From the NCBI RefSeq assembly GCF_003390325.1, contig NZ_QUOK01000002.1:434001-498000 (forward strand): a stretch of DNA of 64,000 nt, given 5' to 3'. Position numbers and translations under genes: made by a program. This DNA is from Rhodohalobacter sp. SW132 (GTDB lineage Bacteria; Bacteroidota; Rhodothermia; Balneolales; Balneolaceae). The notes beneath the pieces are model-generated. The model was given only the letters and a program-made list of their open reading frames with translations. It searched no databases and had not been told where the DNA came from. Below, piece after piece: positions 17,679-29,795 of this stretch (its first letter is position 1; the number at the start of each line of letters is the position of its first letter).

Positions 17679-18422
17679 ATGAAAGCAGATATTTTGGCCT
17701 TTGGTGCTCACCCTGATGATACAGAACTCGGTTGTGCCGGTACACTTGCCGCCCTGGTTCAGAAGAACCGGTCGGTCGTTGTGGCAGATCTGACCCGCGG
17801 TGAGATGGGTTCCCGGGGTACGGCAAAATTGCGGCTTCAGGAAGCGGAGAAAGCAGCTTCCATTATAGGACTGTCGGATCGCCTGAATCTCGGCCTGCCC
17901 GATACGGAATTATCAAATATCCGTGAATTCCAGATCCCGATTATTGAAGTGATACGTCATTTCAGGCCGCACATCTGCATCCTTCCCGCTCCCGCCGACC
18001 GCCACCCCGATCATGGGAATGCGGCCAGACTGATCAGCGATGCTATTTTTTACAGCGGTTTGATAAAAATAGAGACAAAAAACAGGGCTGGAAACGTACA
18101 AAATCCACATCGCCCGGCACACATCTTACATTACATGCAGGATCGGCCGTTTGAACCCGATTTTATTTTTGATATTACGAATACACTTTCCATTAAAGAA
18201 AAAGCAATTAAAGCATTTACATCGCAGTTTGATGTTGCTGATCCCGGGGATGAACCGGAGACCTACATATCGGATCCCTCCTTTTTTGATGCGCTCCGTT
18301 CTCGTGCAAAACACATGGGCCACCTGGCCGGGTTTGAATATGGTGAAGCTTTCAAATATGCTCAAAAACCCTTTCCGATGAATTCATTAAATTTTTTGAT
18401 GGACACCTCTCCTTTGCGATAA
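17679..18422 (+). CDS. bshB1: bacillithiol biosynthesis deacetylase BshB1
   Basis: 247 residues from the ATG at 17679. The frame is open to 17436 but the preceding 81 codons overlap the divergent permease gene and look non-coding. The PIG-L/LmbE zinc motif AHPDDTELG (His11, Asp14) and the second motif RHPDHGNA (His109, His112) are intact, and the C-terminus GFEYGEAFKYAQ is typical of BshB1. The enzyme removes acetate from GlcNAc-malate in bacillithiol synthesis. bshA and bshC are not in the window. The 127-bp repeat array starts 26 bases after the stop codon. Confidence 0.93.
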   Translation: MKADILAFGAHPDDTELGCAGTLAALVQKNRSVVVADLTRGEMGSRGTAKLRLQEAEKAASIIGLSDRLNLGLPDTELSNIREFQIPIIEVIRHFRPHICILPAPADRHPDHGNAARLISDAIFYSGLIKIETKNRAGNVQNPHRPAHILHYMQDRPFEPDFIFDITNTLSIKEKAIKAFTSQFDVADPGDEPETYISDPSFFDALRSRAKHMGHLAGFEYGEAFKYAQKPFPMNSLNFLMDTSPLR

Positions 18423-18447
18423 CTTAAAATATAGAACCGGAACTCTC

Positions 18448-18801
18448 AGATATGGTATTTCTGGAGGTTTTGAGTTTTGCGAAGCGGTGAATCCGCAATA
18501 GCTTTGGAATTTTGGACTGGGGTAAGAAGCATGAGAAATACCATATCTCTTCCATGTATGGTTTCGGGGCCTTCAGATATGGTATTTCTGAGGATTTTGA
18601 GTTTTGCGAAGCGATGAATCCGCAATAGCTTTCGGATTTTGGATTGGGGTGAGAAGCGTGAAAAATACCATATCTCCTCCTTGCTTGATTTCGGGACTTT
18701 CAGATATGGTATTTCTGAGGATTTTGAGTTTTGCGAAATTGTTTATTCGTAAGAGTTTCAGGACTTTAGTCTGTATTAAATGCCACGAGAAATACCATAT
18801 C
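18448..18801. repeat. three-copy 127-bp tandem array with inverted-repeat ends
   Basis: Units at 18448-18548, 18575-18675 and 18702-18801, spaced exactly 127 bases start to start with 26-base spacers. Each unit opens with AGATATGGTATTTCT and closes with its near-exact inverse (AGAAATACCATATC(T)), so each is a hairpin-capable module with about 70 internal bases. Units 1 and 2 are closely similar throughout (for example TTTTGAGTTTTGCGAAGCG near the left end). Unit 3 keeps the ends but diverges [10 protein letters not shown]. The array fills the gap between the convergent bshB1 and inositol monophosphatase genes. Short reading frames across it are by-products. Confidence 0.9.
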
Positions 18802-18816
18802 ATTGCCTCGGAATGG

Positions 18817-19623
18817 TTATTGGGCATTTTCCCTGGATTTTTCGGGGATGTGTTCTTTGATTCGGTTTAAGAGATGAGCATGAATATCCGGATTACCGGC
18901 GACCATGCGCTGGCCGAAAAGCCAATCGTCTTCGCCCATCCAGTTGGTTACTGTTCCGCCGGCTTCTTTGATGATCAAGGCGGCGGCTGCCACATCCCAT
19001 GCGTGGAGTGAGTATTCGTAAAAACCGTCGAACCTGCCGCAAGCCACACAACAGAGATCAAACGATGCAGCTCCGGGACGGCGGATACCCTGCAGCTCTT
19101 CCATCAGTATTTTAAAAAGTGAAAGGTATGGATCCACCAGGGAGAGATCGTTGTAGGGAAATCCGGTGGCAACAAATGCATTTTTTGCATCCGTTTTATT
19201 GGAAACTGATATCGGATCCCCGTTCAACCAAGCCCCTTCCCCTGCAACTGCCGTGAATTCCTCATTTCGGTTTACTTCAATCACCACCGCTATTTTGGGC
19301 TGCCTGTTTTCCCACATCGCAACGGAGACGCAATAGACCGGGAAATCGTGTGCAAAATTGGTGGTGCCATCAATTGGATCGATAATCCAGGTTCGGGAAT
19401 CACTTAGTTGGTCGTGGTTCTCGGTCTCTTCAGCAAGTACTTCATCTTTGGGAAATTGATTTCTGAGAATACTCAGAATTGTCTTTTCTGTGGCCAGGTC
19501 TGCATCGGTCACCAGATCGTGAAATCCTTTTTGTTGTACATTCAGCGATTTAGATTTGAAACTTTTTACAGTCTTCACCCCTTCGCGGGCAGCCTGAAGG
19601 GCAATTTCAAGGTCTTTATTCAT
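18817..19623 (-). CDS. inositol monophosphatase family protein
   Basis: 268 residues, standard length. Metal-site motifs are present: the Glu-rich DEVLAEETE, the WIIDPIDGTTNFAHDFP core (Asp-Pro-Ile-Asp-Gly-Thr), and WDVAAAALIIKEAGG near the C-terminus. These enzymes hydrolyse inositol-1-phosphate or other sugar phosphates with Mg2+ in the cytoplasm. In bacteria SuhB also binds the NusA/ribosome assembly complex, so the physiological role is open. Its 3' end abuts the 127-bp repeat array. Confidence 0.93.
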   Translation of the reverse strand: MNKDLEIALQAAREGVKTVKSFKSKSLNVQQKGFHDLVTDADLATEKTILSILRNQFPKDEVLAEETENHDQLSDSRTWIIDPIDGTTNFAHDFPVYCVSVAMWENRQPKIAVVIEVNRNEEFTAVAGEGAWLNGDPISVSNKTDAKNAFVATGFPYNDLSLVDPYLSLFKILMEELQGIRRPGAASFDLCCVACGRFDGFYEYSLHAWDVAAAALIIKEAGGTVTNWMGEDDWLFGQRMVAGNPDIHAHLLNRIKEHIPEKSRENAQ

Positions 19624-20391: not shown

Positions 20392-21174
20392 TTGAAGCAC
20401 TCGCTACATTTTTCTTTAGGCGCTGTTCTGCTGCTTGTTTTTGTTATTTCATCTTGTGATGAAATCTCAACAACCCCGGAATCCGGTTCATTATCTGTAC
20501 AATCTTTTTCTATCTCTCCAAACAATGTTCAGTTTGATGAAGAGACCCCAATCGGCGTGGTGTCACTTCCCGTATCCCTCCAGCTGACCCTGAATGAACC
20601 CACGGACCAAGAGATCCGATACACGTTTGAAAACCGTGGAAATCTTGTTGAAGAAGGCACTTTCAACTCAGAAAGCGAGACTGAATACATCGCTGAACTT
20701 TCACTTGCCGTAAACAGCGTCGAAAATGTTACCTATAAAGTATATGCTTTCTCTAATAGCGGTGATCGCATGCAGGGATCCATCAATTTTATCGGAAGAA
20801 TGGTTTCGCCACCTGAAATCGCGGACGCTTACAATACCGAGGAAGCCGTAATCCCTAATGCAGGCAATGAACAAATCGATTTTTTTGCTGAAGTATCCCA
20901 TCCGGATGGGCAGGAATATATTGATGGAGTATTTTTCATCCTGATCGACCAACAGGGGAACCAGCTGGGAAACGACTTTGAAATGTATGATGACGGAGTA
21001 CAAATTGAAGACGAAGGACGAATTGATGAAACTGCCGATGATGGCCTGTACAGCAGGGCCTTTTTTATCAACCCATCAAATAACCCGGATGAATATTCTG
21101 TTTTTTACTATGCAATGGGCGCCGACGGGCAGTCGAGTGATACCCTTCAAACTCAATTGAGAATTGTAGAATAG
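20392..21174 (+). CDS. hypothetical lipoprotein
   Basis: 260 residues from a TTG start; no ATG gives a signal peptide. KHSLHFSLGAVLLLVFVISSC is a lipoprotein signal with the lipid Cys at about 22. The mature protein is acidic. It has an Ig-like beta-rich first half and a second half with a calcium-loop-like MYDDG...DETADDGLYS pattern seen in secreted 'choice-of-anchor' type domains. Function not recognised. It is the first gene of the tightly packed run to 30889, and the next gene starts directly after its stop. Confidence 0.75.
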   Translation: MKHSLHFSLGAVLLLVFVISSCDEISTTPESGSLSVQSFSISPNNVQFDEETPIGVVSLPVSLQLTLNEPTDQEIRYTFENRGNLVEEGTFNSESETEYIAELSLAVNSVENVTYKVYAFSNSGDRMQGSINFIGRMVSPPEIADAYNTEEAVIPNAGNEQIDFFAEVSHPDGQEYIDGVFFILIDQQGNQLGNDFEMYDDGVQIEDEGRIDETADDGLYSRAFFINPSNNPDEYSVFYYAMGADGQSSDTLQTQLRIVE

Positions 21175-28770: not shown

Positions 28771-29795
28771 AAATTTTGATGATTGCCCCGCTCTCCGCCG
28801 GAATTGTACACGGAGGTGTTCGTATGCAGAGTGCCAAAACACTTGAGTATCTGCGTACCCGTGGTCACGAGGTTGCGGCCTATAATCCGTGGGAACATTA
28901 CGAACCGGAATCGTTCGACATCATCCACCTGTTTCTTGCAGGCAATGAAACTCTAACTCTCGCCAAAAATCTCAGGAACAGATCGACCCGGTTTGTGCTC
29001 TCCCCGGTCTTTTTCACCCGCAGATCTGCGTCAACAATTCGGAATATATTGTCCATGGAAGATATTGGAAGCCAATTGTTAAAAGGATTCAGTTCTGATT
29101 ATTCTATCAAGGCGGATGTGTGCAGATCAGCAGATCTAATTTTGCCAAACACAATGGATGAAGCCAACCTGATTATTGATGGATTTGGAGTTCCGATCGA
29201 GAACGTTACGGTGGTTCCAAACGGCGTGGAAAATCGGTTCGAAAATGCTTCTGCGGATCCATTCATTCAAAAATATGGGTTGAAAGATTTTACGCTTTTT
29301 GTGGGTGATGCATCCGCTGCCCGAAAAAATGTGTTGCCCATGCTTGAACAGTATGGAGCTGACGATCCGCCGTTGGTGATTATCGGAGCGCTTGATGAGT
29401 CCGATTACTCTTCTGCCTGCCGAAAGTTGATCAAAGCTTCTGACAACATTCATTACCTGGGACCGATAAATCATGACGATCCGATGCTTGAATCTGCTTA
29501 CAAAGCTGCGGCCGTATTTGTACTCCCTTCCCTTTTTGAAACACCGGGTATCGCCGCACTGGAGGCGGGCCTTGCCGGATGCCGTATTGCAATTACCGGA
29601 TTAGGCGGTACCCGTGAATATTTTGGGGATCATGCGTTTTATATCAATCCTGATAAACAGGAATCGATCATTCGGGCGATCCGGAATGCACATCAGGCAG
29701 AAGAGTCCCCGGAATTAAAAAACAGAATTAAAAAACAGTTTACCTGGCAGGCTGTTGCAGAAAAAACTGAAGCTGCTTACCAATCCATTTTATGA
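28767..29795 (+). CDS. glycosyltransferase family 4 protein
   Basis: 342 residues from the ATG in an ATGA overlap with the deacetylase. The frame is open earlier (28677) but the expected N-terminus MKILMIAPLSAGIVHGGVRMQ starts at 28767. The C-terminal donor site shows FVGDASAARKNVLPML, VIIGA, and FVLPSLFETPGIAALEAGLAG with the E-x7-E motif of GT4 retaining enzymes. It acts in the cytoplasm on glycan precursors. It is directly followed by wecB, again with a four-base overlap. Confidence 0.9.
   Translation: MKILMIAPLSAGIVHGGVRMQSAKTLEYLRTRGHEVAAYNPWEHYEPESFDIIHLFLAGNETLTLAKNLRNRSTRFVLSPVFFTRRSASTIRNILSMEDIGSQLLKGFSSDYSIKADVCRSADLILPNTMDEANLIIDGFGVPIENVTVVPNGVENRFENASADPFIQKYGLKDFTLFVGDASAARKNVLPMLEQYGADDPPLVIIGALDESDYSSACRKLIKASDNIHYLGPINHDDPMLESAYKAAAVFVLPSLFETPGIAALEAGLAGCRIAITGLGGTREYFGDHAFYINPDKQESIIRAIRNAHQAEESPELKNRIKKQFTWQAVAEKTEAAYQSIL

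Follow-up and report, generated by a model that had tools for sequence, protein, structure and literature searches.

A three-unit tandem array in Rhodohalobacter sp. SW132 is probably a cluster of RAYT-associated REPIN-like elements

In Rhodohalobacter sp. SW132 (Balneolaceae), the gap between two convergent genes is almost entirely occupied by three tandem copies of a 127-bp module with inverted-repeat ends, and the question raised by this locus is what kind of element the array represents. It was found in a stretch of 64,000 nucleotides (contig NZ_QUOK01000002.1, positions 434,001 to 498,000), referred to as the window. We consider it very likely that the array consists of three REPIN-like units in tandem, belonging to a family of about 50 in the genome that was most likely spread by a REP-associated tyrosine transposase (RAYT); as part of that explanation, and with the same high confidence, the unit is taken to be a non-autonomous element of about 101 bp with two 15-nt REP-like arms in inverted orientation. 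The features of the locus are as follows.

17679..18422, + strand: bacillithiol biosynthesis deacetylase BshB1 (NCBIfam TIGR04001, 268 bits versus a cut-off of 182.5); context, outside the element
18448..18548, + strand: REPIN-like unit 1; arms 18448-18462 and 18534-18548, both exact
18549..18574, no strand: linker 1, 26 bases separating the arms of successive units
18575..18675, + strand: REPIN-like unit 2; arms 18575-18589 and 18661-18675 (one mismatch); 87% identical to unit 1
18676..18701, no strand: linker 2
18702..18802, + strand: REPIN-like unit 3; arms 18702-18716 and 18788-18802 (one mismatch); interior diverged, 69% identical to unit 1
18817..19623, - strand: inositol-monophosphatase-family protein (Pfam PF00459); context, outside the element

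Start-to-start spacing of the units is 127 and 127, and Tandem Repeats Finder returned a period of 127 for the array, as an initial annotation of the sequence had stated; its description of two similar units followed by a third that is diverged inside and retains its ends also agrees with the identities above. That annotation had each unit capped by AGATATGGTATTTCT and its inverse, which is exact for four of the six arms; units 2 and 3 have one mismatch apiece in the right arm. Six arms at two or fewer mismatches compare with a chance mean of 0.08, and none of 100 shuffles reached six. Within each unit 86 bases separate the start of the arm from the start of the inverse arm. The convergent arrangement of the flanking genes, also noted initially, was confirmed: 394 bp lie between the two stop codons, and the array begins 25 bp past one and ends 14 bp from the other. 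A search of positions 18300-19000 against Rfam gave no meaningful match to a known RNA family (best E 4.2). Two further short tandem repeats, with periods of 18 bp and 13 bp and about two copies each, are present in the window at 20988-21026 and 29712-29738.

The unit is not confined to this locus. When the host genome was searched, as the initial annotation had advised, dispersed copies were found: BLAST of the array region gave 24 matches (itself included), and pattern searches for paired arms found 37 units under strict and 53 under relaxed settings, the reversed control yielding 0 for both. From 20 stretches (the window and 19 other loci) 51 units with at most two mismatches per arm were extracted, occurring as tandem arrays of up to six, as pairs and as singles. 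The period within arrays is 125-131 bp, and other neighbouring units lie 155-366 bp or more apart. The two longest arrays, of six and five units, flank one RAYT-like gene. Nineteen clusters or single units could be placed against a crude ORF call: the neighbouring genes were convergent for 11 (among them both arrays beside the RAYT gene), in line for 4 and divergent for 1, and 3 were left unassigned. Gaps of at least 100 bp in the window were in line in 8 cases, convergent in 6 and divergent in 5. The excess of convergent settings (11/16 versus 6/19; Fisher P 0.03) is a tendency, and such sites are perhaps the safest for the units.

Comparison of the 51 units revealed that their fixed part is the arm only, with its outermost A. 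The arms read RAYATGGTATKTYT, and in relatives mostly [AG]A[CT]ATGGTAT[TG]T[CT]T, with a possible GGT loop. The two arms of a unit are matched to each other: they are identical in 39 of 51 units, their mean identity of 13.69 of 14 exceeding the highest of 10000 shuffles (13.41), and a variable T/C site agrees between them in 50 of 51. Neighbouring arms of successive units are also alike (20/28 identical), which reflects the homogeneity of the arrays. One locus, L013, has mixed arrays; there the T/C site varies between neighbouring units but is concordant between the two arms of each. The units are polar, 47 of 51 having G as the inner base of one arm and C as that of the opposite arm, and the inner spacing is tight at 83-86 bases from arm to arm. 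By eye there are two types of interior, one in the window and at L009-L014 and L016, the other in the RAYT-flanking arrays at L015, L017 and L063. Thus the units beside the RAYT have nearer relatives than the window units, and what the two share is the arms.

As single-stranded DNA, whole units fold better than shuffled sequences (z -3.35 for unit 1 and -4.21 for unit 3), and a long RNA hairpin is predicted for each unit on either strand (z -1.7 to -5.0). Single arms of the window, tested on two 15-nt cores, fold weakly (-0.6 and -1.2 kcal/mol; z -0.7 and -1.5); an arm variant at L076 forms a perfect 6-bp hairpin (z -3.7). Covariation inside the arm stem was not significant (P 0.08) and was rejected as proof of an arm hairpin. 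A base pair just outside the stem is favoured in the host genome (21/46 array sides versus a shuffle mean of 14.5, P 0.016), with no evident preference in the other genus that carries units (30/110 arms). No GTAG or GT[AG]G tetranucleotide is fixed within 8 nt of the arms on either strand (15/102 outside, 5/102 inside; no fixed column). The repeat therefore departs from textbook REPs in lacking a GTAG-type tetranucleotide, in its weak arm hairpins and in its polar units.

A search of the host genome (G000) for Y1 transposase domains found seven places, of which C3:171170-171505 lies between the six-unit and the five-unit array and corresponds to the following gene.

G000:C3:171128-171703: RAYT-like gene, 192-aa product P0001, inside two arrays of the same family

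The REP-derived element with a matching RAYT proposed by the initial annotation is thus supported, the arms on both sides of this gene being those of the window units. P0001 matches NCBIfam REP_Tyr_transpos (NF047646) over its full length (E 1.2e-13, 51.1 bits), below the 80-bit cut-off; its only Pfam matches are Y1_Tnp (20.1 bits, below the cut-off of 23) and a weak SduA_N. It carries a HuH motif, NHFH, and a tyrosine motif, YIHRNP, 64 residues apart. By profile, P0001 belongs to the RAYTs. A PDB search with P0001 alone found nothing. From 80 loci with related genes, ATG-initiated proteins of 180-225 aa were obtained for 75, and 53 of these were aligned, P0001 not being among them; all 53 match REP_Tyr_transpos, and their profile had a sole match in the PDB, 4er8 (E 2.6e-5), the structure of E. 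coli TnpAREP in complex with a REP hairpin. The fold was tested on a Rhodohalobacter sulfatireducens relative (L168) that is 52% identical to P0001. Its model (mean pLDDT 93.1) matched 4er8 best (E 3.4e-7, TM 0.76 by target, 14% sequence identity), followed by the IS608 and ISDra2 transposases. The hallmarks of a RAYT/TnpAREP (class 2 TnpAY1) are therefore present in the HuH and tyrosine motifs and, on L168, in the fold, with the score falling short of the curated cut-off. Other RAYT-like genes were seen in the host genome: two (L124, G000:C9:6000-10600, and L125, G000:C3:312300-317000) encode 204 and 214 aa and are each flanked on both sides by their own, different short inverted repeats, and a 178-aa RAYT at L057 1405-1941 (G000:C7) scores above the NCBIfam REP_Tyr_transpos cut-off (102.8 bits).

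Relatives of P0001 (E 1e-5 or better) are present in 61 of 128 genomes of the order. The flanks of 119 distinct RAYT genes were inspected (44 from the order, out of 45 attempted with L126 yielding no match, and 80 from named genomes, less 5 duplicates), and at least two arm cores on each side were found for five, the host's own gene and four from one other genus. These five make up one side of a branch with SH-aLRT 91, so that a single state change accounts for their distribution, and none of 500 shuffles gave a count as low. Many of the remaining RAYTs adjoin other repeats, and beside some none was detected. The relaxed paired-arm pattern occurs in 24 of the 128 genomes, all within 2 of 39 genera. 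Among the 28 genomes of the second genus, the four with a full or nearly full RAYT of this clade hold 36, 32, 29 and 3 units (mean 25), against an average of 5.2 in the other 24 (one-sided P 0.007), which include G101, with a RAYT fragment at a contig end. The genome with only 3 units is G100, in which the clade RAYT is present. In the same genus, unit counts are 22 in G031, 23 in G103 and 18 in G107, and the matches listed include no clade RAYT for any of these three; of 36 loci chosen for the units they carry, only L112, presumably from G100, showed a RAYT. These three genomes count against a strict dependence of the units on the clade RAYT: the enzyme may have been lost, the assemblies may lack it, or a different RAYT may act in its place.

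Comparable sites without units were also found. The convergent gene pair of the window is kept without units in 12 relatives, with gaps that differ from 5 to 1000 bp, and no clean empty site for the window array was obtained among them. The pair is absent from the stretch examined in the three relatives whose phosphatase comes closest (72-77% identity). The 197-bp gap of the BshB1-phosphatase pair in another genome (L145, G004) holds a different short direct repeat, about CATCTCATTCTTGCCGGG. For the RAYT locus, 22 relatives have the right-hand gene without the RAYT and with the left-hand gene not beside it, giving no clean junction.

Three other explanations were weighed against a RAYT-spread REPIN-like family. 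The arms might be bound by a cellular protein (nucleoid, gyrase-like or regulatory), with selection keeping the arrays and the adjoining RAYT being incidental, as could be argued from arms conserved far above the interiors, from the tight spacing inside units and from the convergent genes around 11 of the 19 clusters. The RAYT clade nevertheless tracks the arm type (5/5 genes, and none other of the 119), the units are missing from 104 of the 128 genomes of the order, relatives retain the window gene pair without them, and array periods vary from about 111 to 131 bp, which leaves no common helical phase; we regard this explanation, a form of the protein-binding array that the initial annotation gave as its alternative, as unlikely and as not needed. 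Helical phasing as such (126 bp being 12 turns) was discarded as a general property, since periods in other genomes are about 109 to 129 bp, and 223-224 bp. The last value comes from L116 1498-2250, where units of the same arm type are spaced at about twice the usual period.

The 12 relatives that keep the gene pair without units speak against a role in terminating transcription from both sides, or in stabilising mRNA 3' ends, for the two convergent genes, a role that the closeness of the array to both stop codons and the RNA hairpin predicted for each unit on either strand would otherwise fit. A consensus search found no terminator-like site within the array and one outside it (18830-18848, versus 0.7 expected), and this function leaves dispersal and the RAYT link unexplained, though it could be a side effect; as the explanation of the array we judge it highly improbable. 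There is just as little to recommend the idea that the units are MITEs mobilised by a DDE transposase, or belong to some other mobile element ending in inverted repeats, and that a RAYT happened to insert into one array: 15-bp terminal inverted repeats do fit a MITE, but arms stand on both sides of RAYT genes in two genera, and the five RAYTs concerned form one clade.

The RAYT-spread REPIN-like family thus remains the preferred reading, and what we infer beyond the observed features, namely cutting, strand choice, movement and the origin of the tandem copies, would proceed as follows. A unit that becomes single-stranded, as might happen on the template of the lagging strand, would fold into its long hairpin; the RAYT from G000:C3:171128-171703, as an HUH, single-tyrosine nuclease, would recognise the arms and cut beside them, and would then join or copy the unit into new intergenic sites, the new copies persisting mostly between genes. 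TnpAREP is described as binding folded single-stranded REP DNA, cutting it and being able to transfer strands (PMC8266576). Tandem growth in steps of about 127 bp may come from unequal recombination, slippage or repeated RAYT action; tandem clusters of REPINs are documented, and in the account of PMC3116915 they are taken to need a second mechanism. Judged from these sequence features the element is probably mobile and probably spread by the RAYT between the arrays, and the window array is probably without a necessary cellular function. Going further, we put forward only tentatively, as one possibility among several, that a Balneolaceae RAYT lineage without a guide tetranucleotide reads two distinguishable 15-nt arms as a polar pair, spreading and tandemly amplifying the module of about 127 bp, that the arms drift with the enzyme (AGAYATGGTATTTCT, AAACATGGTATGTTT and forms between), and that in some species the unit populations persist after the enzyme is lost.

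What is found at these loci is what characterises REPINs: a dispersed inverted pair, a long hairpin, and an adjoining RAYT gene with the same repeat type. As in the REPIN/RAYT system of Pseudomonas fluorescens SBW25 described by Bertels and Rainey 2011 (PMC3116915), an inverted pair of short repeats is the dispersed unit, and the ordered clusters of that strain are tandem, near-identical REPINs with their flanks, notable ones lying beside RAYT genes. Unlike SBW25, with 1422 REPs that are mostly unarrayed, the present genome, from another phylum, has tens of units, mostly arrayed, and they carry no GTAG-type foot. The canonical REP, with a GTAG/GT[AG]G foot and each repeat a stable palindrome of 20-50 nt, is not what is seen here. 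The system of E. coli, TnpAREP with REP/BIME (4er8, PMC8266576), is alike in fold, by model, and in that inverted pairs may be tandem; by that account its REPs differ in being longer and bulged and in needing GTAG for cleavage.

Quentin et al. 2018 (PMC6006769) describe TnpAY1 subclass 2.6 (RAYT group 5) from Bacteroidetes, in which, as here, weak, atypical flanking structures without GT[AG]G recur in the genome; the taxa are Bacteroidetes-like and the protein size is similar. The subclass 2.6 motifs given there differ from those of P0001 (NH[LIV]H versus NHFH, WQ versus FN, YIH[QN]NP versus YIHRNP), as does the distance between HuH and tyrosine (a median of 82 versus 64). NHFH is also found in 103 of the 119 relatives, and F replaces W in most. 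On its sequence motifs, P0001 fits no subclass line of Table 1 in that paper exactly. TIRtrons (Di Nocera et al. 2013, PMC3733652) are similar in that a RAYT-like gene (TIRYT) is flanked by non-GTAG inverted repeats and some of these repeats also form dimers or clusters at other sites. The TIRs published there mostly share GGGGWSAS, unlike the arms here, and most TIRYTs are placed in subclass 2.1 with a C-terminal HTH (Bac_DnaA_C, HTH_23 or HTH_28; PMC6006769), none of which Pfam found in P0001.

Both the clustering of tandem REPINs next to RAYTs and the occurrence of REPs without GTAG in Bacteroidetes have already been published, in the papers cited. Our literature searches found nothing on RAYT with Balneola or on REPIN with convergent genes and, by title, nothing on point for REP in Rhodothermaeota or palindromic repeats in Rhodohalobacter, which does not prove absence from print. 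That this is a RAYT/REPIN-type system in a little-studied group, with the canonical GTAG foot absent from the repeat, is well supported. It offers a clean RAYT-repeat pair outside Proteobacteria, in which the repeat is without the foot on which known TnpAREP biochemistry rests. The arms of related enzymes differ at few positions (AGACATGG- and AAACATGG-type relatives), making recognition swaps possible, and genomes with units and no detected cognate RAYT make the question of REPIN persistence accessible. Annotators should bear in mind that a regular array of about 110-130 bp found between convergent genes may represent a REPIN cluster.

Of the 119 RAYT loci, 26 have a tandem array of 60-250 bp within 700 bp; among control stretches farther away the count was 4 of 46 (Fisher P 0.036). 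The difference is no more than a tendency, and such arrays were not accepted as a general hallmark of these loci. RAYT genes beside arrays that have the period of the present one (124-128 bp) and unrelated repeat sequences were also seen in Calditrichaeota (L173) and in Pleomorphovibrio marinus (L197).
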